Assembly: GCA_900708905.1 (NCBI GenBank) | Contig: CAADRB010000051.1 | Location: forward strand, 133,740 to 197,739 | Direction of reading: 5' to 3' | From: Hymenolepis diminuta | Taxonomy: Eukaryota > Platyhelminthes > Cestoda > Cyclophyllidea > Hymenolepididae | DNA: 64,000 bases | Shown: one piece after another, positions 4,971 through 60,720 of the stretch | How positions within the stretch are numbered: the stretch's first letter is position 1 | Layout of the letters: each line of letters starts with the position of its first letter | Position numbers and translations under genes: made by a program | Notes under the pieces: model-generated | Database searches by the model: none | Told to the model about the DNA's origin: nothing | What the model saw: only the letters and a program-made list of their open reading frames with translations

Positions 4971-4977
4971 TATAAAA
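4971..4977 (+). promoter_or_regulatory. TATA box of the micro-exon-type gene
   Basis: TATAAAA lies 53 bases before the ATG at 5024, which would put transcription start near 5000 and give a short leader of about 25 bases. Its position relative to a well-supported first exon makes it a plausible core promoter. Confidence 0.55.
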
Positions 4978-5023
4978 ATAGATAATCAGGAGTTCAAGAG
5001 ACATTAAATCAAAACGCAAAAAG

Positions 5024-6282
5024 ATGGATAAATATCAATGCTTCATAGTATTAAACATATTCTATTTGGTTACTACGGCATTTGCTCAAGTAAATAACAA
5101 GCAATTGTACATCAATACAGGTGAGAAATTATTATAGTAAAAATTTGCGACATAACTATATGATTTCGACGAACGAAATCACATGTGCATGGCGCTATGG
5201 TCATTGATAACTTCAGACTCTATTAAAAGTAATATTTTTTCAGGTTTTAATGAAATCGCAACATCGGTCTCAACATCATCTTCACCGAGTATGAGTAGTT
5301 TTTACTATTGATATTAAAAAAACGGTTTTTATATGCAAATGTAACGTGTGTATGTTTTTTATCTCTTGAAGAAACTCCCGAAACAACGGGATCTTCGACC
5401 TCTAAAACAGGTAAGGATTTGTGACCGTTGCATATACTAACTTGGCGGGATTTTGGGTGTTAGCATATATGCCTCCCTGCTCGCCATCTAATATCCACCA
5501 TAGTCAATAAGTTCGATCATAAGTCAAGAGGGAAAAATTACTCTCTGAAGGAAAATTTGGCGAGGTGAACACATCGAGACTATCCTCCACCCAACATCTC
5601 GGTGTCAACTTCCTCATTTATCTTTTAATCATGAAGAGCCCCATCTGTTTTAACATTAGCCCCAGTTTCCAGTCCACCATAATTGGAGATTTAAAAGCGA
5701 CTCGGTGAGAAACTGGATTTCTACTTCACATCATTAATATTTCGGATCCAAATGATGGGGAGCAGTGAAGTAGTCCGAATGGGAAGAGGGAGTTGAAGAG
5801 ATGTGGAAGTTGGAGTCTAGGCATCAACGGTGTCTAAATTTTGATGATATCTTAGTGAATGGGTCGACAGACTTCCACGCATTTTGAGACGAATCTGTGT
5901 TTATATTCTAATATTCTTTGTTGCTTTTTTTCATTTATGTTTTAATTACAGTTGATGCTGGATTTTTTACCAACTTTCCTGAAAGGACAAGTAAGTAATT
6001 ATCCCTGGACAGCTTTAATCATTATTTATTCACTTTGATTCTAATTCTTACATTTCTGTTCAACTTTAATGATATTTGAAAATGAATTGTTTAAAATTGT
6101 CTATAACTTTAAAATCAGTTAAGATGAAAATTGACAAGTCCTGCCGTTAATATGAAAATTTTTATTCTTTATGTTTAACACCAAATAATTTTATTTTAAT
6201 AGCTACCACCACATCATCCGCAGTTGTATTGGGATCATTCAGTGGATATTTTCTTCTCATTGGTGGAATTATTATTGCTTAA
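5024..6282 (+). CDS. Micro-exon-type gene for a small secreted/GPI-anchored Ser/Thr-rich protein
   Basis: Five exons join into a 300-base frame (99 residues): 5024-5120, 5244-5288, 5372-5410, 5952-5990 and 6203-6282. All introns (123, 83, 541 and 212 bases) start with GT, end in AG and interrupt in phase 1, so the three internal exons (45, 39, 39 bases) are symmetric and each could be skipped without a frameshift. Exon 1 encodes a signal peptide (residues 1-21, MDKYQ then a hydrophobic core ending TTAFA). Exons 2-3 give a Ser/Thr-rich, probably O-glycosylated stretch (TSVSTSSSP, TTGSSTSKT). Exon 5 encodes TTTTSS, then a hydrophobic C-terminal 20 residues ending GGIIIA with no basic tail, like a GPI-attachment signal or membrane anchor. 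This matches the micro-exon gene (MEG) architecture described in schistosomes. No sequence homologue is recognised. The frame continuity across five independent splice junctions is strong evidence; the function (surface or secreted variable peptide) is inference. Confidence 0.8.
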
Positions 6283-6371
6283 ATCTACCTTTATGTTACC
6301 ATTAATTTAAAATGATTCTTCTATGAAGATGGATTCTCTTCACTTGTCCTTCTCCTGTGATTGTGACGAAT

Positions 6372-6377
6372 AATAAA
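6372..6377 (+). promoter_or_regulatory. Poly(A) signal of the micro-exon-type gene
   Basis: AATAAA sits 90 bases after the stop codon at 6280-6282 in AT-rich sequence, at the spacing expected for a short 3' UTR. Confidence 0.6.
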
Positions 6378-6569
6378 TGCATTATACTTCTTTGTAATTA
6401 ATGCTTCTTATAGTAATGGGGTATTTGGAGCTAATAAGTAAACTGAATATTGTTAAATTGTAGAAAATTTAATTTATATTTCATCTAAACACGAGGTAAA
6501 AGATTTAATTTTGGGTGCGAAATGATCATACCAGAATTTCTAGAAAATGGAGGGGAGAGCATCAAAAAG

Positions 6570-6720
6570 ACATGGAGAGCAACATCACGGAATTGGAAAG
6601 TCCTACTTCATTTGATTTTTGGAATTGAATTGTACAGTTTTTAATAAATTGGTAGCTCACATTCCGAACATCGAATTTTGTGATTCGTCAACTGGATTGC
6701 GGCAAAGGCTTGTGGAAAAT
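6570..6720 (-). repeat. Dispersed repeat R2 (gypsy-linked), copy a
   Basis: The sequence around TCCTACTTCATTTGAT and GGATTGCGGCAAAGGC parallels 11890-12010, and in the opposite orientation 11150-11270 and 34900-35030. Because 11150-11270 directly follows a gypsy integrase remnant, this family is probably the 3' part of that retroelement. Confidence 0.4.
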
Positions 6721-9700
6721 TTTCAGTGTTTATGAACCTCTTTTAAGTAAAAAGGGTTGGTCCATCACTTCGATGCATTTCTTCTTCCAAAGATTGAGAA
6801 GTTAAAACGGCATCACACGATTTCCCGTAAATTACCGTTAGTTTGTTAGTTAGCTAATTGAGATTTTTTATGCTCAAAGGATATATCAAGAAGCACTCGA
6901 CTGGAATTATTTCGAATTATAATTCGAGTGAAGTAATGTTAAAGTATCCCACCAATTATGCAAGAGCGTTTCAATCGTTTCCACGAGCATTCGCATGCAA
7001 CTTCGCGTTCCACTGTTTTCGATCGAATTCTCTCGAGATTGAAGTCGACACTGATGTCAATATTAACCATAACAGACCGGTTAAACCGCAGTCATCCTTG
7101 GCGTCTTATTTATCTGACTCAGAAATAATTTTGTATTACCTTTTTTTATAGCTTCCATTGGTACCTGATGGCTAAAAACGGTAAGAGTACTATGCAAATT
7201 TTTCCTAGCGAACCAAAGGCAAAGTCTTCTTCGTTGAACTTGGGTGGGCAGATTCTTTATAAGTCACGACTCTGCTAGAGAGTAATTCTATGATTTGACA
7301 TCTCGATGAGCGCTTTGATCCTCGTGCTAGTATGAAGAGAAGACTTACAAGTTAATGTTTCCATTTCCGTCATCTGTGGCTTATAAGAGGTGGATAGCTA
7401 GATATCTTGTTTCTGACCTCGTAGATAGTTATTACCTTCTTATAACAGCCGGTCTTCACCACAAACAAGATCAAGAAGAGAGATATCGCTGTTTGAAGAA
7501 CTGTAATGAGTACAATGAGAAAGCTCAGAGTAGTGGCAGGGAGCAACAGGAAGGAATTTACAAGTAATCCGTTGTTATTATTTTCGATAGTTTTATTCGT
7601 TCATAAAATTACATTTCCAATTTATTGATAAAAATTGATCAGTCTTGAGTGATCCATTCATTACTGACACTTTTCACTCCTCGGGGCAATAAATATTCCC
7701 AGTTAATTTTGTCAAGCTCTGGCTGATAACTTACAATTTGTATTTATTTTATAACAAATTTTGAGGTCATCACCGTTCACTGAAGTTTATTTAATTTGGA
7801 CGGATTTTGGGGAGAAATAGTGTGAAGGATGAATCCCTTCGTCTCCGAAGTATTCATCTTACGTCACCGCTAACCACCAAAATTTAATTATCTGTAAACT
7901 TTTAACCTTTCCTATGACCCCATACGCTCTATGGATAAACATCGTGTGTCCTCAAGTGGCCTATTTTCATCGATTGGAAAAGCTAAGTGTACCTCAGATG
8001 ATAGTTGCAGAGACACCGCTGAGTCAGCTATATTAGTAACCAGTCCTGTCCGTACTGCCCCTTCCTTTTCCTAAAATTGTTCCGTCCAATTAAAGCACAC
8101 ATTCAATTACGTCCCCACGCCTTCCAACACACGCAGAGAGACTGTCGTCTGTCAGACGCATCTTCCTCCTTTCCTCAATTGTCTCTTCCTCTTGGGAGTC
8201 TATACTGCAGTTTGTTTAATACATCCATTGCTTCATTGCTGTTAGCCCTTACTCTAACCGCAATCAGTGGAAGTATTTGCATTAATCAATTTTATTTAAG
8301 GTTCTAAATACCCCCATATTTTGATTAAATGCGTGTTCATATTTTCCTATTTTATTAAATCAGAATGTCAAGATTGCTTCTTCGCTTTCTGAAACTAGAT
8401 TAGAATTTTCTAGTTGCACACCTTCTATCAGATTAGTGAAATTTTTAAGAATTTGTTAAGAATTTCAAAAACTCGTACTTGCTTTCAGAAACAAGTACGA
8501 TTTCAGAATCTTGCTATCCAATGTCATGGCCATGTAAATCACCTTGTGCATCCAGTAAAGATTAAAATTTGAAAGAAATCAGAAGTGACTACTAACCTTT
8601 TAATACTTCCATATCTTCATGGTTTGACTAGCCTCTTTAGATTTCACTTCACTTGTGTTTTCACCACTGTTGATTTCTAGGACTGTTGGTTCTTTTTGTA
8701 GTGTTTAAGAGAAAGCTCGTAGAGAATATCAAGAACCTCAATTCACCCTCGATTAGGAGTAAAACACTCTTAGAATAGACTTCAATTCTCTGTTGTTCTC
8801 TTTCCGTTTGCGATTCCTCTGCATACTCCCCTTTCTCTGCAACTTCCATATCTGTCGAATAACTTAATAGAAAAATGATAATTTATGTCTTTTATCTAAT
8901 ATATCGAGATTTTAAATTCGTTTTTTATTTCCATTCATGACGTGAAAGATGATATCTTCAAGTGAAGACAAATTTAATAATATTTCATGCGGTTTGAAAT
9001 GTTTTTTAGGATTTATTTGAATAAAAAAGATTTTTCATAAGTTATTTATTATATTTAAGATTGCAAAAACTGTTCTTTTTAGTTTAAATTTCCAACTATA
9101 CTTTATTCTAGTTTTACTTAATCACCCTACCGCATGATTTTTTGTTTTTTCCTATATGAATAACCCGATTTTGTAAGTAAAATTTTTCACCTCTCTATTA
9201 AAAAGGAAATTTGTTTTAAAATTATACCAACTTGCTACGAGATTTGAAAGATTTTTATTGACCGCATTGGTTACATTTTTCTCTAATTAAAAATTTCCTT
9301 CAATATTCTCACTAATTACTTCTAGGACTCAGTTATCTCGATGTCAAGATCGTTACTACGGCACTTGGAGACCTGGATTCCTCGTTGTGACCGCAGACTC
9401 ACATCAAGCGTATAGCCGTGAAGCAATAGAATGAATACCAACAATTGTTATTCAATGTAGAAAAATAGATATTATTCAGCAGGGAAACACAAAGTTCAGG
9501 TTAGCACTGGTTCGTCAGCGTCGTATTTCCCATTTTTAAATTGTTTGATACCAGGGAAAAGCATTTTTTCTTAAATCTTAAAGATACAGTGGAGATGAAA
9601 TATACAGTAAATAGGCCAGGCAATACAAATCAGGCAAACTTATAATAATTGTAAGTCAGTTTATTTAAAGATCGTATATGGCAACCAGTAGCAGCCAGAA

Positions 9701-21058: not shown

Positions 21059-22364
21059 TCAGGTTGTAACAGAAGTTCTGTCCAATTTTCGAGCTATGTG
21101 TTCAGAGTACGATTGCTTCCATTTAGCTTGTTAATGTTGTGTGCTTGTCTATGGTAATTAATAAAATATTATTTCTTCCTAGAGATCGTGTGATTAATTA
21201 TCGTTATTAATAACTCTTTCTAGCCCTATTATGCACTCCAAATAAAGAACATATGAGGCATTATTTCTGTTCGAATTTCATCAGGGAAATACGGCAAGCT
21301 CAGCAGCAAAAACAGTTAAAGACACCTGTGGAAATGATGCTGTGAATGAAAAGACCTGCAGAAGGTGGTTTTCTGCAGCTGATTTCAAAAAGGATGACTT
21401 CAGCCTGAAAGACGAGAGACGAACCGAGCGCAGGATGCTCAAATAAACTCAATTCTGAGCAACTGCAAGTTACCATTGATGAAAATCCAACCTGCATCAC
21501 TAGAGAACTGAGCAAAACCTTTCACATAAGGCGCCATATGACCATATATATGGCTTGGCATGAAAAGACTTGGTTAGGAAAATCTCAAAGGCTTGGAAAT
21601 GAGTCCCACACGATTTGTCACAAATCAACATGCAACAGCATGTGACCTGTTGTGTTTCACTGCGTTCTCGTGAACTGAACTTCAAGCACCTTTTTAGACC
21701 GAATCATAACTGACAGCGACGAGAGGCGGTGGATCCTTTACAACGATGGTAAGCTCAAAAGACAGTGGTCCAAAGCCAATTCCACAACCGAGACAATTCA
21801 GGACTGCACTCGGAGAAAATTCTTTTGTGTGTATGGCGGGATTTGAAGGGAATTGTTTATTATGAACCAAAGGGTAACACTCAAACAATGACATCTGAAG
21901 TTGACTGTCAGCAGCTAACTCGTTTAGAAGCAATTAACGGCAGGAAAAACGGTCTTCTTTGATCAATCGAAAAGGATCGATTCTGTACCATGACAATGCC
22001 AGACTCCCACTTCAAGAGCAACCAAAAATCTCGTTGAAGAATTTGGCTGGGAAGTCATGTATCACCTACCATATTCCCCCGATCTTGCACCAACCGATTT
22101 CCATCTTTCTAGGAGCTTACAGAATCATTTAATAGGACTTCCAAGGCTTACTTCAAGAGAAGAGGTCGAAATGAAGCTAGTGCCATTTTTTGAGTCCGTG
22201 CTGGCTAAATTCTAAGAAGATGGAGTGAGAAAGCTCATGACAAGGTGGGAAGATGTAACTAATAAAAATGGTGACTGTGTTGAACACTAACTAAATGTAT
22301 TTTGGCAAAATTTTCACTTTAATTTTAAATTTAAAAAATGGACAGAACTTCTGTTACAAGGTGA
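21059..22364 (+). mobile_element. Mariner-family transposon, copy 1 (complete ends, dead transposase)
   Basis: The ends carry inverted repeats, TTGTAACAGAAGTTCTGTCC at 21064-21083 and its reverse complement at 22340-22359, with an outer TCA/TGA. A TA dinucleotide flanks each end (21057-21058 and 22365-22366), as expected for mariner insertion. The element is 1306 bp, the usual mariner size. The transposase frame is broken by stops and frameshifts, so it is not autonomous. Confidence 0.9.
21265..22215 (+). pseudogene. Mariner transposase pseudogene (copy 1)
   Basis: Fragments in several + frames follow the order of a mariner transposase. There is an N-terminal helix-turn-helix with NEKTCRRWFSA, then RIITDSDERRW and LKRQW around the first catalytic Asp, then WRDLKGIVYYE and TSEVDCQQLTRL, then HDNARLPL-like sequence around the second Asp, and YSPDLAPTDFHL with the third. 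In-frame stops lie, for example, near 21444 and after 21960, and frame changes near 21700 and 21970. Intact relatives have about 345 residues. Confidence 0.85.
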
Positions 22365-26934: not shown

Positions 26935-29900
26935 TTACACATCAGCATCTTCGGCATCATGTTCAGGGTCAGTTAAAAGAGCGTGTTCATAGTTATCTGA
27001 CGATGTGGACCAACGACGACAGAATCTGAGAACAACAAAGAGAATTAGAAGTCCGAATGATATAACAAGCACAGATCCTGCCATGAAAATCATCATCCAG
27101 ACAAGACCTGACAGTCCAACGACGGGTGGAGCGCCGAGGCCCAGATCCACGGACCTACAAAACCAATACAAAAAACAATAATAGTGTAAGCCACAAGAAC
27201 GTTAAAATTAGGCTTACAACCAGTATGAAAGCACACGCCAGGAAGATGACCATTTCCTCTCACCCTTTGCTATTTTCTTGTTTTTTGACTCCCTCCATCG
27301 TACAAACGTCACGGCCCTCCATTCCAACTGACACTATCTACATGATACTCCTTTGATAATGAAGAATGACTTTCTATGAATTTCCAATATTATCTTTCAA
27401 TCACATTCTCTATGACAATATAATATTATTTTCTGTAATTGTCTAGTTTCCCTTAAAAGCGCACCTGCCCTTACACCCTCACGTCCCTATTGAGGTATTT
27501 GAGGAGGCAAGTTTTATTGAAGCTTGGAAATGAAAGCAATTGAGGTACGATTGCTACAGACGTCGGTTTTCATAAACTGAAACGTGTATTTATAATAACT
27601 AATTTCACCGTCTCTAAACCGGTTTTAATAGAGAATACATAGCTTTCAACACAAAATCTATCGGGGGAAATGTGGGGATTACTGCCTTGATATCAAGTTT
27701 TCTGCAGAGTTTCGGTTACAATTAGGGGCTTCTTTGTGTTTAATAATTTCTTCTTTTAAGGATTTTTGAGAGTGTTTATGTAGGAGTTTTTCTTTCTAGG
27801 CAAGTAGGTGCAAATTGTAGTAATCAGTTTTCAGGAGCAAAGGTTGCCACTCATTTGTATTTTCTTCCATTTCAAATTCGTCCGATTGTAGGAGAAATAG
27901 CACCCTCAATGTAACCAAGGTTAAAAATTGCGTGGTGAAACCACTCCCAACTTTAGACTTACTGAGCTGTCAGTTGGCATAAGCAGGCAAGGTTTGTTCT
28001 AATGGCCACGATAGCAGCATTATGCCATTTTACTTGATTTAGCATAGCAGATCTCACTAAGTTCATCCAAGGTGAGGCGTATGAGTGCTTAGACTAATGG
28101 CTTGAGTTACTACTCTAGCAACACTTACAACTCAGAGACTAGAAACAAAGGCAGCAGTTTAAACAGAAGTACACTCAAATTTCAAAAACCTGGGCAGGAG
28201 TAAGCGATAGTTAAGTGAATAGGATGAGCTTAAATAAGCTTATATGATTTTAACACTGAAGAGCTCACTAGAATTCATCCAAGATGAACTCACCAATACC
28301 TAGAATATTATATGATAATGATAGTAACAAATAAAGTAACTTTTAACTCACCAATGAATATACTTAGAGGCCTTATAGAATCCATCACCTGAGTCCCCAA
28401 AACTGATATTCACTGCACGAATGGCAGGTAGATCAAGGCCGAAGATGAAGGGTACGAAAGATCTCGTCACGATGAGTTTTTTGGTATTCTTATCGATCAG
28501 TGACTGCGATGAGACAGTAACAGCTCGACTAGTTTTTAACTCAGCCGAAGACTCATTGACGTAACAGACCGACTTCCAGGTCATATAGGAGTTGTTACTT
28601 AGGAAGATTGTCACATCCTGAAAGAGAAAAAAAGGGGTTTAAAAACCATTCTAGAAGACAGCTAATGAGCCTTAGACCAATTCTAAAATAGGAAGTATTT
28701 TGGATTAGGATTCAACAAAGCAACTATAGCCATTCATCAAACCAGTAATTCTGAACGATTTATCGGCAGTTGTCCATCGTAAGGTGAATGAAAGTTCATC
28801 AAAGGCTATTTGGGACAATGCTAGAGCTAGCTGAGAAAGGCCCATTGAAAACCCTGCTCCACAATTACAACAATGAAGAATAAATCAGTGAGCACGTTTC
28901 TACAAGGAAGATGATGTGCTGGTCAAAATGCAAAACGTGGCTAATTCCAAATTTGCATACGTAAAGACTGAGTGCTAGAGAAACTCTATCTGGACGAAAA
29001 TAAAGTGTTTGGTCAGAAAAAACGCAATGTGGATAAAGAATCCTACAACCGCCCGCATTATCGAAAATTAAAGAGATGGTTGTGAAATCATGTCATGAGG
29101 ATTTTCCAAATGAAGATGACGAAAAGATTAGGCAAGTCTACTCAAGTTTACATTGAAAAAGGACATGATGATCTTGAAGCTCAGACGAAGTGGAATTGTC
29201 CTGATTGCCCGACTCTCATTCCTACCCGTGGTCAAATTTAGCGCCCCATTTCCAATCTTTGAGTGTTAATCTTGCGACCTTTGAAGTAGATGATATGGTC
29301 GTTAACATGACACAACTGGCTTATAGGCTTACACAAGTTGACGACTTATTTAAATGGTAAAATGTTAAAAACAAATCACAAATAGTGAATGTACGGCGCA
29401 CATATGAAATCGAATAAGACCAAAACAAAGCGAGATAATAAACTATGAAGCTGATGCCATCTATTAAAATCTCAGCCAATTATCAAGCGGACAAATATCC
29501 ACTCAACTCATCATTTAGAACTCCAGGTGAATTATTATCCTACCCTAGCATATTTTCTAACTTTAAGGTGGCGGTTAGGAAAGCGTTTTCCAGTACACAC
29601 CTTGAGCAGAGAGACAGCATCATGAAGCCTCCATGATAAAGGTTCGAATTCTACTACCCTCTGCCTTTTATAGACCCGCTAGAAGAAACAATAATTATTT
29701 TCCCCCAACATTTCTTCTATAAATAAAGATATAAATTCCTTCTTAATTCTCCCACTGATAAAAGACACCGCAATTATACCTCTGCTTAAGCCGATACCGA
29801 TTGAGTTTCGTTAATACACACACGTGTTTACTATAAGGTGCCCGGTGTTGTGATGCTGTGGGTTATTGGGTTATTGGTTGCTAGATAATCGAGTTTTCTA

Positions 29901-32250
29901 GATTGCTTGTTCTGCGAGATTAATACCGGGACTTCCAGTTTGTTACGTTATAACATGTCCAGACCTAACCAGTGAGATAGACCATTTCGATGGACAGCGA
30001 ATTTCGCAGAATTTCATCGCTGTGCCACGGTATTTAAACTAACTTTTTGACAAATCCCGGTGAATAGAAATTATTATCCAACCATTTCCTAGTAGTGACT
30101 CAACCGACTTCGTGCCTTGATTTATTAACAGGTCTAGGACTTATTTGAAATGAACAAATAAAGGACAATAACGATAAAACATGTATTCAACGATATTAAT
30201 CATCGGTTCGCTTGTGTTAGGTAGATTTGGCTACGAGATACCAATGAGATCCAGATGAAAATCTGGTTCTAGCAAGGTGACTCTGTCTTGTATGACACTT
30301 AATCATAATATCTCTGTACTTTTCGATCACATCTACCCTCTATCGCACATCCCGTTAGAACTGGTTATTTAACCGCCTAATAAAAGTGTGAAAAAATCGA
30401 CTGAACACGTTGAAACGCAAAACGATTAGAAAGAACAGTGCAATGCGTAGGTGACTACGAGATCGAGCCAGTTCGATAGTAAAAAATAAAGAAAATGACG
30501 CATTTCGAGAAACTAAGTAGTACGTTGTTGTAAACTAAGAACTTGGGCTTAACTAATCTAATACTGAATGCCTGCTGATATAGCACGGCTAAGGTTGATT
30601 TCCTAAAAGATTTCCAGATATTTAAATGTTAGAAGACCTGTAGAAAAGTTCAATCAAGAAAACAACTGACTTGAAATAAGGATTTAACACAGAAGTTATA
30701 AATAACCTGCAACTACAGCAAACCAGAAGAAATTATCTGGTTTTGTAAATTAGGTAGCGCATCTGTCACACAGATTAAGTCTGTGAAACGACAGTAAAGA
30801 TACTCGGACCGATATGAAGACCTTGAGAAGCAGTCATACGAAACCGAAGCCCAAAAATCACACGAACTTGAGCGGTTAAACAAATTTCAGGCGTGTTGTG
30901 CTTTTACGTGACCTGATGTGATTTGTGGGAGGAAGATTAACGAGACAGTAATCGTAACTGATTTCTATTTTCGATGAGCCCGGATACGATTTAACGGCTG
31001 CCGACTCTTACATCTTCGTCCCTCTTAATCTCTCGATTTTTCATCGTGCCTAACTCAATAAAATTTGGTCAGCGCAAATCTCGTGTTCCACTTTTCGAAG
31101 TGTCAATTGTTGTTGCCAAATGGTAGCCTCAGAACTACAACAACAGTATTAATTAAAAAATAAACTAACTTTAAAACTCACTTTGAAGGTACCGGGTGCA
31201 GGTTCATCATTAATCGATACTGAAGTTGAATTTGCAAATTGGGCATTCGGAAGAAGTGTGGTGTTCGATATCAAGGCCAACCCTAAAGCCCATCGTGTCT
31301 TAGCATACGGAATTCCCGCTCTTTTAGCAATTGAGAGGCGTTGAATGGTAACTTTGATTCGAACAGCTAATCCTCCTACTAAGATAACATGGGGAGCATC
31401 AAGTGAGTATTGGTCCTTATCTGAAAATGTAAACTGAAAAAAAGAAAACTTAGAAGCAATTAATCCTAATTAGAAAGCAGCACAGAAAAAAGCAAAACTA
31501 ACCCGCAACTCGACGTGACCATGTGTGCCGAATACAGCCACTGAGCGAGTGTCATTGCACTTAAGACCCACAGACAGCAACCCTAAAGCGTTCGGTTTGG
31601 GATCCCAGTCACTGAGATACCAAAAACACTGATTTGTTGATATCTTACTAACACCATCAGTGTACTTTGACAGATCGGCCACATCAAGTGTATCATTGTA
31701 TTTGTATAACTGAAAGGGAGGAAATGACCAGAAATTGCGCAAGATACATAAACATTTTGTAAAATGGACTCACATAAGTAAACAAAATGCCATAAAAGGA
31801 GCTGTTTGCGAGAAACACAGCGGGCTGTGTCGAACTGTCATTTAATATAGCCGGCCAATTAAACTGAAGGGAAGAATTTGCTCTACTTGATGATATAAAT
31901 ACAGAGGGCACACTTCTATCTGAATATGAATTAATAACGAAGTGGGTAGAAAAGTGGGGCTCCTGATAAGAAACTGTTAAAACATTCAAGTCCTCTGGAC
32001 AGTTATCACATCCCGGATTAAGCTCTGCTTTTAACTAAAGATTTAAGTGATATATAATAACATACTGTTTGTTGAAAAACGTGTGGAACGTACAATGAAA
32101 TTACTACAATTGTAATTAGCAAAGTCTTGGTAATTTCCACACACATCCCCCTACGACTGCAAGCCAGCCAAGGCAGACTGACCTCACCTTGAGCAAAGAT
32201 GGACATATAGCACAGTAAAATAATCACAGATTGAAAGCGTTTAATGTTTG
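26935..32250 (-). CDS. GLMP: Glycosylated lysosomal membrane protein (GLMP/NCU-G1) orthologue, six exons
   Basis: Exons on the - strand: about 32250-32188, 32027-31774, 31709-31503, 31433-31182, 28617-28352 and 27154-26935. All introns are GT-AG and the phases agree. From the only ATG (32206) the frame is 405 residues; human GLMP has about 406. Matching landmarks are an N-terminal LNPGC, FTYLYKYNDT, the AFF/NISFG block (AVNISFGDSGDGFYKASKY), then LGLGAPPVVGLSGLV and one C-terminal membrane span (about residues 351-375). The short cytosolic tail ends in YEHALLTDPEHD, with tyrosine/dileucine-like sorting features. About ten N-glycosylation sequons sit in the luminal part. The family is a heavily glycosylated lysosomal membrane protein that in mammals supports the MFSD1 transporter. 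The frame upstream of the ATG encodes a hydrophobic stretch (SVIILLCYMSIFA) that looks like the signal peptide, so the true start is probably in an unseen upstream exon or at a non-AUG codon. Confidence 0.92.
28740..29250 (+). repeat. Dispersed repeat R5 copy in GLMP intron 4
   Basis: The end of this segment (GGCAAGTCTACTCAAGTTTA, then GAAGCTCAGACGAAGTGGAA and CCTGATTGCCCGACTC) matches 50500-50615 and, more weakly, 60640-60700. The last of these follows a LINE reverse-transcriptase remnant, so the shared part may be a LINE 3' end. Confidence 0.45.
29677..29955 (+). repeat. LTR-like repeat R6, copy a (GLMP intron 4)
   Basis: It shares with 32828-33120, in the same order and orientation, TAGAAGAAA, TATTTTCCCCC, TTTCTTCTATRAATAAA, AAAAGACAC, TTAAGCCGATAC, GAGTTTCGT, GTGGGTTATT and CGAGTTTTCTAGATT. 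The repeat ends in TTATAACA here and starts with TGTTAG in copy b, as expected for a solo LTR of about 280-290 bp. Confidence 0.7.
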
Positions 32251-38800: not shown

Positions 38801-41800
38801 CTCTTAACCTACATTATTGCTCTATTGTGTCTTATGTTCAGATGATATTCCACGATGAAAAATTAAAAAATTTTCGCCCTCTCGTAGGTAATAAATAAAT
38901 AACTTAATGGTTCTGATGTATGCAAAAAGCTAAACTTACTGACAGGTTATTAGATACAAGTTCATTTTGCCCATGTTCTGGAATCGAGCCGAACACTGAG
39001 CAACTGAGACGTCGAGAAAAGTCCCACATAGCATTAGGATCTGGTGAGACGACTAGTGACTGTGGTCTTCTTCGAACTCTTTCTGAAACACTATTACCAT
39101 TCACGAAGACGGAATTATCCGGGTTGTACCAAGAGTGTGTCATCCGAGGAAGATTATTTTGGGTTATTAGGGGGTATTTCCCAACAGTGGATGATATCAT
39201 TGGCAGACGATTCTGCGTCTGACTGTTGCGATTTAGTAGGGATTGTAGGAGATTTGGCATTCCCGAAAGCACAATACTTATTACGCCACCCGCTACTGTA
39301 AGTACGTAGGCCCAACCAATTTCACAACGTCCTGTAAAAAGGAAATATTTACTTACTATTTCGGTCCCTCGAGAAATTTATTAACTAATTTGATCTTGAC
39401 TTGCCTAATTTGAATGTCCCACTTTCATCCCCACAAATCTGGTTGATCTCCGAATTGTTGGACCATCCAAATGGGTAGATGAAACAGGAAGTAAGACAAA
39501 GAGATCCTAAGACGGAAACCATTGCTTTTAGACAAAAAACTTACCATAAACGTTGAGTTATTTAATAGAAGCCTCTTTACATATACTCAAACGACTCAAA
39601 ATATATAATAATGCTCTTTCTAGCGGCTCGAACCCAGCTACCACAAAACTGGAACGAGACGATAAGCGATTCACAATAACAGATAAATAAAGTCGCAACA
39701 AGTTAGCAACATTTTCTTTCGAACAAAACGCAAAATACGTAATATTAAATTGATAATTGTGATGTAAAGCATTCAAACTAATGTACACTATAAGTTGGTC
39801 TGAAATCACAAGTTTTGCTAAATAACTTCTCTGTTGTTATATAATAGGTCGGGTAGAATTAGAATCTCCTCGTGCAACCTTGTTTTAAAATAGAGTAGCA
39901 TTATTATTCATTTAGTAGAACTTGAACTAAGACGAACCTCATTGAAAATATAACAATTTTCCAAAACTTTCCTAACGGGAAACAAAGCCTTTCCTAAATC
40001 AGAAGGTCAAGATTTGTAGGTCACCATGGATATACTTTACACCAGCAGAAAACGCGAGAAAAAGAAAGTAAATCAAATAATATATTTGAAAAGTAGGCAT
40101 ATTTTCCACCTGGTGGTATTTTAAATTTTACTGAATAAGTGAACAGTTGGTTATTAACGAAGAGAAATCGATCCTTATTTTAACTTTAGAATACAATATG
40201 ATGTTTTGTTTTAATTTATAAAAAATACGCTTTTTTTAATTTCGTGGCTGCGTTCTGCCACGAAAGATGGTCATAAATACTCACACTAGCCTGACAAGAA
40301 CTCATTAAAATAAAGGCCAACATACTGTCGTTAAAGACGTTAATTTTCACCACAAAATGGGCCAGACGTTACACAAGGTTCACTTCAAAGTTGTGCCAAG
40401 CGAAAAAAAAGTTCATTTGATCATGATTTTGATGAAACCCAATAGTTTCGGCATTTCGAGGCAGCAATTTTGGAGCTATGATTTTTGAAAGTTATCAAAA
40501 GAAGAAACACCAAGAACAGTAAAGTAAGTATTTAAATTTAAAAAAAAGTCTTGTATTATCATGTAAGTTTGTATCATTTTGCCATTTTGGTGCTAAGGAT
40601 AAACAAAACTTGATAGCTTATAGCAACTAACGGCTTTATAACTTGGTAGTGGTATCACCACCGGTTCTTTAAACTTAATCAACTCGAATGTACGTCTTCT
40701 TCTGCAATTAGACGAATTCAAATAGTATTTCAATCTGCCTTTCCTTGAAGCTAAGCTCCAATTAAACGTCTTCAAAAGTCTCAAGAAAGGAGGAGTTCCT
40801 TATCCCAACTGAATCAATGCAGACGTCATGATTTCAAAACTGAAATTCCTCGAAATTTATCTCTATTCTTCTTTAGCAAATAATACTCTGAAAGCTATGC
40901 ACTCTTTGATCAAATCTTATCTTTCGAACAACCTTCTCTTCTAATTTAAACGATGTCTACGGTAAAGCGCATGCTAAAATAGACTTTAAATGTGCTTTTC
41001 TTACCAAAACTCACCTACTTCCCTGTCGTTTAGTCCGGAAAATCAATGCGTATATTGTTTTAAAATATTACAAATTATTCATATATTTGGTTTTTTAATT
41101 AAACTTCACATCAAACACAAGAGCTATATATATATATTTATTTATTTATCCACTTGACACTTAACGTCATTAGCATAGAAATCTAGACTAGCTCAGAAAC
41201 AGATAACAATTTTGAAAACATGTCGATGGTTTTAAAGATCACGGAGGTGTTAGTAGCTTCTAAAGTTTCGGCCTACCGATTTTTCACCGACAGCAATAAT
41301 AAAGTTTCTAATGGTTCTTCTTGACCAATCCGATCTCCATAAAAATCTTTTCCTTTAAGAATTAAATTAAAAATTTAAAGTAAATTTATTCAGAAATTGA
41401 TACTGCATTCTTTAATGCAAGGGTTAGTGAAAAGTGATCTTCTGTGTAATGTAATTTCCAATTTTTCTAGTAATAACGGATACGCCAAGCGACTGCAGGT
41501 GGATTTACTTCACTTTCTTGTCATAACACATCAAAAACTCGAGCACTTATAAAAAAGGAAAGAAACATTAGTGCTGTTAAAACACGAAATACTCAGTCCG
41601 CCTAAATAATACAGGCTTTATGGGCCGTAAAATTACTTGTAAAATTGAAAATTGGAAAAGGAATTTTTAGAGATGAAGAAAATATAAGGAGAGCCAACAG
41701 TATCATTCAAAGCTCGAAAAGTAATCACTTAGTTCCAAAATCTATAATATTCCTCCATCAATTTATCAAAAAGAACACATTTCAAAAGGCTCCTCCTTTC

Positions 41801-50800: not shown

Positions 50801-51342
50801 CACATTTTTGGGCTATGTTCTGCAGACAATCTCAGAACAGCTGTTTGGGTGATACAATTGGATGACTCAGACCTACAGACAACCTAACGAGAGTAAAGGG
50901 GACTCTTTGAATAACACTTACCAGCTAAGAAGTAGACGTATGAACAGGCTCGGGATAATTTGGCATTCGTCCTCAATAGGGCTGTACAGGCGCCGGCACA
51001 GACCACAAAACAAGCGAGAAAGACTAGTAGACAAGCAGAAAGAATGAGGAAAATTAGAGCCATTCGCCAAACCCAATGAGGTACAGTCTCTAGGGCTGGA
51101 TAGTAGCCACAGCCATGTGTCCATTCAACATCACCATTTGGCCGATATGATGGATATCCACAACGTCGAAAGAGGCCAAGATAACTAATACTACTTACCA
51201 TCCCACCATTGTAAGTAAGATAATTAACACTTCCACTAATCCAGAAAGGTAGGAGACAGCAGGTACAGCATATACCTGCAGCGAGGATAGTAAGAAGAGA
51301 CCAAATTAACAGGACAACGTAGATATGCCACCCTGGCGTCAT
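35811..51342 (-). CDS. LHFPL: LHFPL-family tetraspan membrane protein, four exons
   Basis: Exons on the - strand: 51342-50922, 39506-39405, 39331-38940 and 35930-35811, joining into 1035 bases (344 residues). Phases (1, 1, 0) agree throughout. Four membrane spans are visible: about residues 7-31, 91-119, 134-151 and 182-200. Loop 1 has the family pattern LGLFRRC (Cys61) and CGYY (Cys78), followed by WRMA. YPFGW follows span 3; then come Cys165 and CEIGWAY (Cys177) before span 4. Family members are tetraspan proteins of plasma membrane and junctions, for example LHFPL5 in hair-cell mechanotransduction; by eye LHFPL6 is closest. The cytosolic tail of about 144 residues is much longer than in human members. 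Intron 1 is 11.4 kb. Intron 2 is only 73 bp and uses a GC donor (GCAAGT). If the exon 3 donor (GTAAGT) is not used, the frame reads on to a stop at 38904, giving a 316-residue form. An in-frame TGA upstream of the ATG supports this start. Confidence 0.9.
36266..36461 (-). CDS. Orphan open frame in LHFPL intron 3, possible exon
   Basis: After the acceptor-like TTTATCTTCAG the - strand reads LLRIESQNIDGLIAVLVSNN and continues with a mixed, protein-like composition to a TAA at 36266 (about 65 residues). It cannot be an LHFPL exon in this frame, since LHFPL exon 3 ends in phase 0 and this frame needs two preceding bases. No family is recognised; it may be chance or part of another transcript. Confidence 0.2.
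40720..40930 (+). repeat. Dispersed repeat R4, copy b (LHFPL intron 1)
   Basis: CAATCTGCCTTTCCTTGAAG, then GCTAAGCTCCAATTAAACG, CTCAAGAAAGGAGGAG and AAAGCTATGCACTCTTTGAT. The first three blocks match 47650-47730, and the last matches 25360-25385. Confidence 0.55.
42035..42056. repeat. TA microsatellite
   Basis: Eleven TA units in a row just before the maT-type transposon. A shorter TA run occurs at about 41126-41140. Confidence 0.9.
42120..43243 (+). mobile_element. maT-type (Tc1/mariner superfamily) transposon remnant in LHFPL intron 1
   Basis: The 3' end reads CACACCCTGTA, the reverse complement of the ACAGGGTGT start typical of these elements. The 5' end is placed at TACAGACACTC near 42123 but is diverged. 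Between them lies a transposase broken into at least three frames. It is inserted in the first intron of the LHFPL gene on the opposite strand. Confidence 0.7.
42250..43103 (+). pseudogene. maT-type transposase pseudogene
   Basis: Fragments in order: VRRVHEMVDDNPGKLMRDIL (DNA-binding region), RLTRANGLLNKLKHPEEQE and PWFFS near the first catalytic Asp block, IDSVANG, then the region where the second Asp is expected (SPNNVRFHLI, where relatives have a QD motif), WMAENFYRHVTPILWSPN, SSDLNPS with the third Asp, and NKDHLIRAYD at the end. Frame changes lie near 42330, 42540 and 42900. The product is not functional. Confidence 0.8.
43320..43510 (+). repeat. Dispersed repeat R1, copy c
   Basis: Best-preserved copy of the family, with CTTGACCTTGGCAGAGG, CCGAATTAATCAGTGTGGT, TGGCCATCGGCACC and ACCGATGAGCATCAG. 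It lies about 75 bp beyond the maT-type element, as R1 copy b lies 75 bp beyond mariner copy 1. Confidence 0.55.
46229..46430 (+). pseudogene. Gypsy-type integrase remnant in LHFPL intron 1
   Basis: The frame from 46229 begins WIGRIQ and contains ITDYFTAFW, the signature around the first catalytic Asp of gypsy integrases (TDYFTK-like). It then passes through TIVDN to a stop, and a shifted frame continues GLPTMIHFMSNEYLR, matching the G-x-P-x-x-I-x-S-D-x-G-x-x-F block around the second Asp, which is lost. Frameshift and substitutions show a dead copy. Confidence 0.7.
47640..47880 (+). repeat. Dispersed repeat R4, copy c (LHFPL intron 1)
   Basis: CAATCCGCTTGCCTTTAAGG and GCTAAGCTCAAACCGAACGC match 40730-40780. 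The open frame at 47664-47876 is produced by this repeat and is not considered a gene. Confidence 0.55.
48480..48650 (+). repeat. Dispersed repeat R1, copy d
   Basis: Shares GTAGTGTGGTTGGCCATTGC and GTGCACCGAGGAGCATTG with 43430-43490. Confidence 0.5.
50160..50620 (+). repeat. Dispersed repeat R5, copy b (LHFPL intron 1)
   Basis: GATTCTTGGTGTTATCGATT, TTTGTAAATAAAAGCAACAC and CGAGAAGATAC parallel 60410-60460. The end (GAAGCTCAGATGAAGTAGGA, CCTGATTCCCTGGCTCC) parallels 29190-29230 and 60640-60690. Confidence 0.55.
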
Positions 51343-51412
51343 CAATGAGCTAAATCACACGTATCAGCATCAACTTTCGAGCCTAAGTGGATTTCACTTG
51401 GGGATATCGTTG

Positions 51413-53026: not shown

Positions 53027-54178
53027 TCAGGTTATAACAGAAGTTCTGTCCCATAAAATATTATTTCTTCTTTCAGATTGTGTGATAATTATCCTTACTA
53101 GTAACTATTTCTAGCCCTAATGTGCACTCGAAATAAAGAGCCTATCAGGCATTTTTTTTCTCTTCGAATTTCATCAGGGAAATACGGCAAGCTAAGCAGC
53201 AAAAACACTCAAAGACACTTATGTTGTGAATGAAAAGACCTGCAGAAGGTGGTTTTCTGCAGCTATTTTCAAAAAGTTGCAAGTGCAAGTTACCATTGAT
53301 GAAAATCCAACCTGTATCACTAGAGAACTGAGCAAAACCTTTCACATAAGGCGCCATATGACCATATATATGGCTTGGCATGAAAAGACTTGGTTAGGAA
53401 AATCTCAAAGGCTTGGAAATGAGTCCCACACGATTTGTCACAAATCAACATGCAACAGCATGTGACCTGTTGTGTTTCACTGCGTTCTCGTGAACTGAAC
53501 TTCAAGCACCTTTTTAGACCGAATCATAACTGACAGCGACGAGAGGTGGTGGATCCTTTACAACGATGGTAAGCTCAAAAGACAGTGGTTCAAAGCCAAT
53601 TTCACAACCGAGATAATTCAGGACTGCATCCGGAGAAAATCCTTTTGTGTGTATGGCGGGATTTGAAGGGAATTCTTTATTTATGAACTAATGGGTGACA
53701 CTCAAACAATGACATCTGAAGTTGACTGTCAGCAGCTACCTCGTTTAGAAGCAGTTAACGGCAGGAAAACGGTCTTCTTTGATCAATCGAAAAGGAGTGA
53801 TTTTGCATCATGATAATGCCAGATCCCAATCTTCAAGAGCAACCAAAAATCTCGTTGAAGAATTTGGCTGAGAAGTCGTGCATCATCCACCATATTCTCC
53901 CGATCTTGTACCAACCGATTTTCATCTTTTCGGAAGCTTACAGAATCATTTAATGGGACTTCAAAGGCCTAATTCAAGAGAAAAGGTGAAAATGAAGAAG
54001 CTAGTTTCTTTTTTGAGTCCGTGCTGGCTAATTTCTATTAAGAAGGAATGAGAAAGCTTACGACAAAATGGGAAGATAGAATTAATAAAAATGGTGACAA
54101 TGCTGAACACTAAATAAATGTATTTTTGACAGAATTTTCACTTTAATTCGAATTTAAAAAATGGACAGAACAACCTGA
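53027..54178 (+). mobile_element. Mariner-family transposon, copy 2 (deletion derivative)
   Basis: The left end TCAGGTTATAACAGAAGTTC follows a TA dinucleotide (53025-53026). The right end has lost about 10 bases of its inverted repeat (GGACAGAA runs straight into CAACCTGA). Compared with copy 1 it lacks a block after the left end and about 65 bases in the transposase N-terminal region, giving 1152 bp. A block of about 185 bases (53320-53505 against 21500-21685) is identical in both copies. Confidence 0.88.
53160..54065 (+). pseudogene. Mariner transposase pseudogene (copy 2)
   Basis: Same motif order as copy 1, including NEKTCRRWFSA in the helix-turn-helix region and remnants of the HDNA and YSPDL catalytic blocks, interrupted by stops and frameshifts. 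Copies 1 and 2 do not share all of their disabling changes, so they decayed partly independently. Confidence 0.8.
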
Positions 54179-59490: not shown

Positions 59491-60720
59491 TATCCGGAAT
59501 TGTTGAACAGGGATCCTGTTTCTCTTCAATGTAGTGTTTCAGCTAACATTGGATTAGGTGTGCGGAATTTTGTAAGGATTTGAAAGTTAGACTATTGAGT
59601 TATTCAGGACTCGAAAGGTCGTTGAGACTTCTTGAATATGCAGATAACCTATGCCTTATCAGCTCATATATTGTACAAGTTGAACAGCTCCTTCAAAGGC
59701 CTGAAACCAATCTTGACAAATATGCGATGGAAATAGAATATGATAAAACACTCTGGATATACTTCGGTACAGATCTGGATCAATGATCTCACTAAACAAA
59801 TAATTGCAAGATCAATCAAGTGAGTAACTCCCCAGTGAATGGCAAAGGTCTAGTCGATGATGCGGTAAAATTAAATATCATTAAAGGCCAAGCGACAGCT
59901 AGTGAAGTCTAGACTTATTCTAGGATCGAAAGTGTTATCGATTAAAACTCGGGCAAAGATACCGGGAAAATTTATCGAAACAGTCCTTCCGCATGGTTTT
60001 TCTGCAGTTTTCTAATGTAAGGTAAATGATAGTAGATAAAGAGCTCGAAGAATGATGTTAAGATTGTACAGCCGGAGACAAATGAGTATTAAAGTTCTTG
60101 CAGAAAAAATCACTCTGAGAAACTTTGCCAAACAGCTACATGGCTGGAGAATAAGTCCATAGGTCAGTCTTCATAGAGAACATAGCATTATTAACAAAAG
60201 TGTTATTGAACTCCCACTTACCCTAATTAGGTGCCTCTAATCCGCATGGACAAAGAGCTGGTTAAAACAACTGCAAGTAGATGCCGAACAGGTATTTGGC
60301 GAGAAAGAAGGCGAAAATTAGATTATGAATCCTGCGAAGAATTCTGCTGCTCTAGTTATTGAATGTCACCCAAAACTGAAAAAATCACGTAAAATAGAAA
60401 CTGTATATATAGATTCTCGGTGTCATCCACTTTTTGCAAATAAAAGTGAGGTGAGAAGATACTGGCGGATCTATCACCACAAACTCAGATGATCCACCAC
60501 CAGGTAGACTTTTTGTCAAGTAAATCGTTGCTAAAAGAATTATGTGAAATAGGATGTCATCCAGAATACGAAAAGCAATATGGCGAAAGTAAAGAAGGGC
60601 TCTAACCTGAAGCAGCAGTTGACCTAATAATTCTGAAGCCTAAACAAAGTAGGGTTCTCCAGATTCCCAGACTCCCACTTCTACCACCTAATCTACAATT
60701 CCTTTTAAACTGTGAACATG
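59490..60720 (+). pseudogene. Non-LTR (LINE) retrotransposon reverse-transcriptase remnant
   Basis: At 59496 the frame reads GIVEQGSC followed by FSS, the V-x-Q-G-x-x-x-S block of LINE reverse transcriptases. At 59631-59690 another frame reads LEYADNLCLISSYIVQVEQL, where YADN (59637-59648) stands in place of the catalytic YADD. Downstream sequence to about 60720 ends in repeat R5, which recurs at 50160-50620 and 28740-29250. Stops and frameshifts show it is dead. Confidence 0.7.

Follow-up and report, generated by a model that had tools for sequence, protein, structure and literature searches.

On the forward strand of a 64,000-nucleotide stretch of the genome of the rat tapeworm Hymenolepis diminuta (hereafter the window; positions 133,740 to 197,739 of contig CAADRB010000051.1, assembly GCA_900708905.1) lies a five-exon locus, at positions 5024-6282, that is most likely a real but small gene for a membrane-anchored, sugar-coated surface peptide whose middle exons could be omitted without loss of the reading frame. 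A preliminary description had picked the locus out as resembling the micro-exon genes (MEGs) of schistosomes. The full explanation towards which we lean, with some confidence, is that of a glycosylphosphatidylinositol (GPI)-anchored, O-glycosylated surface peptide with optionally skipped exons. One deposited protein, here called P0001, maps to the same locus and agrees with the five-exon model over exons 1-3 apart from the donor of exon 2.

Structure of the locus

The five exons (97, 45, 39, 39 and 80 nt) are separated by introns of 123, 83, 541 and 212 nt, all four of which begin with GT and end with AG, and the joined coding sequence (CDS) of 300 nt yields a product of 99 amino acids followed by a stop. 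An in-frame stop at 4979 lies 5' of the ATG. Internal exons 2-4 are symmetric and in phase 1, and each of the eight possible combinations of skipping remains in frame with no internal stop. Joining and translation reproduced the exon number, lengths, phases, intron ends and 99-residue product of the preliminary description; its TATA box and poly(A) signal are present, its signal peptide in exon 1 agrees with hydropathy and the cleavage rule, and the up to eight forms that it envisaged are open in silico. The features are as follows.

4971..4976 (+), TATA box (TATAAA), 53 nt 5' of the ATG; motif only
5024..5120 (+), exon 1, 97 nt, ending in phase 1; predicted signal peptide MDKYQCFIVLNIFYLVTTAFA and start of the mature N-terminal extension; donor CAG/GTGAGA, 7.3 bits; exon identical in P0001
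5244..5288 (+), exon 2, 45 nt, symmetric phase 1, Ser/Thr-rich; acceptor 4.6 bits
5289..5294 (+), exon 2 extension, 6 nt, in frame, adding Ser-Met with a donor at 5295 (-5.25 bits); in P0001
5372..5410 (+), exon 3, 39 nt, symmetric phase 1, Thr/Ser-rich; in P0001
5952..5990 (+), exon 4, 39 nt, symmetric phase 1 (DAGFFTNFPERT); predicted, absent from the deposited model
6203..6282 (+), exon 5, 80 nt; Thr run, SSA omega-like site, hydrophobic tail (putative GPI-anchor signal or membrane anchor) and TAA stop; predicted, absent from the deposited model
6372..6377 (+), poly(A) signal AATAAA, 90 nt past the stop; motif only

Splice sites were scored with a simple matrix, its weights not trained on the H. 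diminuta genome, and ranked against all scored GT (n = 6,526) and AG (n = 7,449) dinucleotides on both strands of the window. The donors of exons 1-4 rank in the top 0.14%, 14.9%, 0.03% and 0.81% of GT sites, and the four acceptors, in order, in the top 0.9%, 4.1%, 3.6% and 2.2% of AG sites. Between 5121 and 7423, exons 3 and 4 are the sole stop-free, phase-compatible stretches of 9-90 nt with both sites at 2 bits or more, a filter that drops exon 2 itself and leaves exons with weaker sites unlisted.

Predicted product and proposed role

Hydropathy and the cleavage rule place a signal peptide in exon 1, with the h-region FIVLNIFYLV (mean Kyte-Doolittle hydropathy 2.58) followed by AFA/Q. After cleavage at AFA, 59 residues lie ahead of the hydrophobic end, 24 of which are Ser or Thr (14 Thr, 10 Ser). 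The C-terminus, encoded by the predicted exon 5, comprises SSA, the spacer VVLGSFSG and a hydrophobic tail, with GYFLLIGGIIIA following SSA. A serine-serine-alanine site, a short spacer and a hydrophobic end fit the usual rule for a GPI-anchor signal, and the tail is consistent with either such a signal or a membrane anchor. On this anatomy the product resembles a small surface peptide, rich in Thr and Ser and held by a GPI anchor.

The gene would accordingly be one for a short secreted peptide, probably present as a single copy in H. diminuta, no close paralogue having been found. Its signal peptide would be cut after AFA, the Thr/Ser-rich ectodomain of roughly 59 residues would be O-glycosylated, and the C-terminal SSA, spacer and hydrophobic tail would be swapped for a GPI anchor, giving a small mucin-like peptide at the worm surface. 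Both targeting signals would reside in exons 1 and 5, with exons 2-4, as symmetric phase-1 cassettes, supplying ectodomain only. Because of this division, exon skipping or use of the shifted exon 2 donor would alter the length of the ectodomain and the number of its glycans whilst secretion and anchoring were kept. With exons 2-4 optional there are eight possible forms, or 12 if the two lengths of exon 2 are counted, all of them in silico. For this scheme we infer transcription through exons 4-5, GPI anchoring, O-glycosylation, a surface location and exon skipping.

Chance expectation of the exon chain

How often such a chain arises by chance was assessed with a rule that called for an exon encoding a signal peptide, followed by three or more symmetric exons, none above 69 nt, and by a terminal exon encoding a hydrophobic C-terminus. 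The rule was applied to the window and 19 further stretches of the genome, on both strands (508,000 strand-bases), with resampled sequence as control. Under strict splice limits there was a single chain in the genome sample, the five-exon locus itself at 32.1 bits, and none in 1,016,000 resampled bases. Relaxed limits, with exactly three short exons and both ends demanded, gave two genome chains (the second, of 13.2 bits, in the sampled stretch L021) and three in 18.5 Mb of resampled sequence, the best at 15.9 bits. When the signal peptide alone was demanded under relaxed limits, the genome again gave two (the second, of 18.5 bits, in L021) and 18.9 Mb of resampled sequence gave 46 (best 24.0 bits). 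With strict splice limits and neither end demanded, chains began at 13 genome start codons, seven of them at the five-exon locus (six with other first exons), four in L021 and two in stretch L019, and at 40 in 19.0 Mb of resampled sequence (best 24.0 bits). When one micro-exon sufficed and both ends were required, one more genome chain appeared, in L021, at 18.7 bits. A version of the locus with two micro-exons, exon 2 being skipped, scored 28.4 bits; under lax limits the highest such score in 18.9 Mb of resampled sequence was 10.6. Because the thresholds were chosen with the locus known, the weight lies on the gap in score and not on the bare counts.

The two exons absent from the deposited model can be judged in the same way. 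Among 20,000 resampled downstream stretches, 13 offered, given exon 3, a chain no worse than exons 4-5 with a hydrophobic tail; among 137 other strong genomic donors, one was followed by such a chain.

Relationship to micro-exon genes and apomucins

Schistosome MEGs are said to carry about 80% of their coding region in symmetric exons of 6-36 bp (PMC5825161; an upper limit of 36 bp is also given in PMC8293314), and another account (PMC4015677) puts the micro-exon share of the coding sequence at up to 75%. The genes encode a signal peptide and a secreted or membrane-anchored product (PMC5825161, PMC4350168), and generate protein variants through the skipping of micro-exons (PMC4350168, PMC4015677). 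A wider description (PMC10526429) allows 6-81 bp per exon, with lengths mostly divisible by three, 10-20 very short exons per gene, and post-signal motifs of the form FL-phi-phi-F-X6-W-p-(K/H/R) or, in the other clade, FxxLFL. For tapeworms, Olson et al. (2020) used an operational definition under which a gene has seven or more exons, including four or more micro-exons in succession, and counted 52 MEGs in H. microstoma and 35 in Echinococcus multilocularis (PMC7653826).

Like the MEGs of Schistosoma mansoni, the H. diminuta locus has a signal peptide followed by short symmetric exons and a small product that would be secreted or anchored, as judged here by hydropathy and the cleavage rule. 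It differs from them in exon size (45, 39 and 39 nt against no more than 36), in the share of the CDS held in micro-exons (123 of 300 nt, or 41%, against about 75-80%) and in having three such exons in place of a long run. These lengths do fall within the 6-81 bp of PMC10526429. The locus has three short internal exons among five, not 10-20, and its 99-residue product contains neither Trp nor FxxLFL. The MEGs of H. microstoma also come from a Hymenolepis tapeworm, and the present locus falls below the definition applied to them on both counts, with five exons, no further cassette having both sites at 2 bits or more, and a run of three. The locus is built on the MEG principle but, as modelled, is not a member of the class; the reading as a MEG is partly supported. 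The likeness to MEGs drawn in the preliminary description holds for a real-looking spliced flatworm gene with symmetric short exons and a product that is surface-bound or secreted by sequence rules; it does not extend to exon number, to the 36 bp size limit or to the share of the CDS. The further suggestion, that this was micro-exon architecture outside its best-known setting, is overtaken by the MEGs already reported from H. microstoma and E. multilocularis: the setting in tapeworms is not new. In the open-access literature searched by those words, no paper on micro-exon genes in H. diminuta was found.

A second comparison is with the short apomucins of the Echinococcus laminated layer, which have a non-glycosylated N-terminal extension, a mucin domain and a GPI signal (PMC10019577, PMC3510090). 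The order of parts in short GPI-anchored apomucins of the EGC00317/EMC00019 type is that proposed here: signal peptide, short N-terminal extension, short Thr/Ser-rich core lacking long repeats, and C-terminal GPI signal. EGC02904 and EGC04254, which have different cores, may be variants of one another by splicing or as alleles, and this too is a point of likeness. The likeness drawn is one of described architecture, and the laminated layer is called unique to Echinococcus (PMC10019577), Hymenolepis being without one. Among MEGs themselves, three from S. japonicum are predicted to be anchored and heavily O-glycosylated (PMC5825161), like the peptide proposed here. A bolder and rather doubtful extension of these comparisons is that the short GPI-anchored mucins and the micro-exon genes of tapeworms form one continuum, in which the H. 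diminuta locus would be a minimal micro-exon mucin gene, targeted by exons 1 and 5 and able, with three cassettes and a shifted donor, to produce within one worm up to 12 surface peptides of varying length and glycosylation.

Searches for relatives returned the locus itself. The H. diminuta genome, queried with whole-locus DNA, the protein, the exon 1 peptide and the exon 5 peptide, gave no other place, the four matches to the protein lying at exons 1, 2, 4 and 5 of its own locus; these searches scored just one to three candidates each, so that distant relatives could be missed. A protein search with the 99-residue product returned P0001 alone among three candidates at E <= 10, and no Echinococcus protein, whilst P0001 as query returned only itself among eight candidates. 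Within the scope of these two protein searches, the statement in the preliminary description that no homologue was recognised stands beyond the species; within it, P0001 is a deposited prediction from the same locus. Pfam gave the 99-residue product only two matches, both under their cut-offs and set aside as probably a matter of composition: New_glue, at E 0.0041, scored 17.3 bits where 31 is required, and DUF5426, at E 0.027, scored 15.2 where 26.7 is required. The motif of the H. microstoma Chr6 MEG family was not found in the H. diminuta genome, a weak negative given a query of 21 residues and no positive control. The paper on the H. diminuta surface proteome (PMC6240649) held no useful passage on GPI anchors, mucins or uncharacterised proteins, and no paper on GPI-anchored mucins in Hymenolepis was found, as judged by title or abstract.

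The deposited protein and alternative readings

P0001 ('unnamed protein product [Hymenolepis diminuta]', 144 aa) shares with the five-exon model exon 1, the exon 2 acceptor and both ends of exon 3. Its exon 2 donor lies 6 nt downstream, adding Ser-Met, and after exon 3 it continues into two exons of its own.

7425..7563 (+), fourth coding exon of P0001; 106 of its 139 nt lie inside a dispersed repeat
9326..9434 (+), last coding exon of P0001; P0001 is without a Pfam family above cut-off

The repeat, at 7383-7530 (+) in the window, has six further matches in the genome at 70-77% identity. We infer that P0001 stems from the annotation of Nowak et al. (2019), in which the published assembly was annotated from STAR-mapped RNA-seq with BRAKER2/Augustus, Trinity and MAKER2 (PMC6890685). 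A suspected likeness of the P0001 tail to FAM136A, which would make it part of a downstream gene, was pursued and rejected: the two PF05811 matches in the genome are on a different contig (C140), comparison with the PF05811 loci gave one hit at E = 6.3, and PF05811 is not among the Pfam matches of P0001 at E <= 1.

Were the deposited model correct for at least one transcript, the locus would yield a 144-residue secreted protein, anchorless and with a tail partly derived from a repeat. P0001 is in the public databases, the annotation of the assembly drew on RNA-seq and transcripts, and it takes the weaker (-5.25 against -0.87 bits) of the two in-frame donors, separated by 6 nt, that exon 2 has, a choice that seems hard to explain without transcript evidence and that such evidence would account for. 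Against this, most of the fourth exon lies in the repeat, three aligned copies of which carry frame-shifting gaps; the donor at 7564 that ends this exon is weak (-0.51 bits); the introns particular to P0001, of 2,014 and 1,762 nt, compare with a published mean of 843 nt for H. diminuta (Nowak et al. 2019; PMC6890685); and the tail has no relatives, no Pfam family over cut-off and no AATAAA or ATTAAA in 9435-9700, 3' of the last exon. We therefore consider this reading unlikely and the deposited 3' end probably a mis-annotation, the alternative being that 7425-7563 serves as a repeat-derived alternative 3' exon. What P0001 has in common with exons 1-3 bears in turn on the proposal that there is no gene here at all, only a chance assembly of splice sites. 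GT and AG are common, and the model was picked post hoc by an earlier reader; set against this, an independently deposited model contains most of exons 1-3, and the locus scores 32.1 bits, where no chain in about 19 Mb of resampled sequence exceeds 24.0. Chance assembly is already largely refuted and, in our estimation, highly improbable.

A closer competitor accepts the gene and disputes the skipping alone, holding that splicing is constitutive and gives one main product, and we give it an even chance. Symmetric phase-1 exons are simply usual in extracellular proteins, seven of the eight splice sites are in the top 5% of their kind, so that regulated skipping need not occur, and the short exons number just three, all of them above the 36 bp limit stated for schistosome micro-exons. 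The weak donor of exon 2 and the deposited donor 6 nt further on hint, on the other side, at variation in that exon. Conversely, the locus might be a true micro-exon gene, some of whose micro-exons the five-exon model has missed. Introns 3 and 4 offer room for further ones. Against this, 5121-7423 contains no other phase-compatible stretch of 9-90 nt whose splice sites both reach 2 bits, a filter that exon 2 itself does not pass. We hold this reading to be quite unlikely.

The GPI-anchored, optionally skipped surface peptide has its own difficulties. P0001, the sole deposited model found, is without exons 4 and 5 and hence without the anchor. The exon 2 donor (CGA/GTATGA) is weak, at -0.87 bits and in the top 14.9% of GT sites, and the GC content of the exons exceeds that of the introns only slightly (0.36 against 0.34). 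Once the hydrophobic tail was no longer demanded, 366 of 20,000 resampled stretches contained chains no worse than exons 4-5. The signal peptide and GPI signal were called by rule and not by a predictor such as SignalP, the excess of Thr over Ser is modest (14 against 10), and neither a paralogue nor a relative in another species came from the genome search or the two protein searches. All of these weigh against the reading that we prefer.

Other features of the window

Elsewhere in the window, an LHFPL (Lipoma HMGIC fusion partner-like) gene has an exon at 50884-51354 (-) (PF10242, E 1.9e-10), and 38904-39377 (-) is possibly its last exon, with a weak match to the end of the family (E 0.065, below cut-off). 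Exons of an NCU-G1-like gene (PF15065) lie at 28348-28638 and 31149-31469 (-), with E 4.1e-12 and, for the second, E 0.00046, below cut-off. The open frames at 21409-21645 and 53196-53465 (+) have identical 59 C-terminal residues and are therefore two close copies of a repeat, which we take to be perhaps the remnant of a mariner-like transposase; the copy at 53196 has no Pfam match at E <= 0.1. A weak reverse transcriptase match at 59547-59786 (+) (PF00078, E 0.021, below cut-off) is probably a retroelement remnant. No Rfam family matched the 64-kb window at gathering scores.

Significance

If the locus is expressed as predicted, the deposited model has an incorrect 3' end that conceals a GPI-anchored surface peptide, and counts of MEGs that demand seven exons would overlook genes of this kind. 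If skipping is real, micro-exon variation of the surface coat would occur in an adult gut tapeworm that is easily kept in the laboratory, and would be directly testable there.
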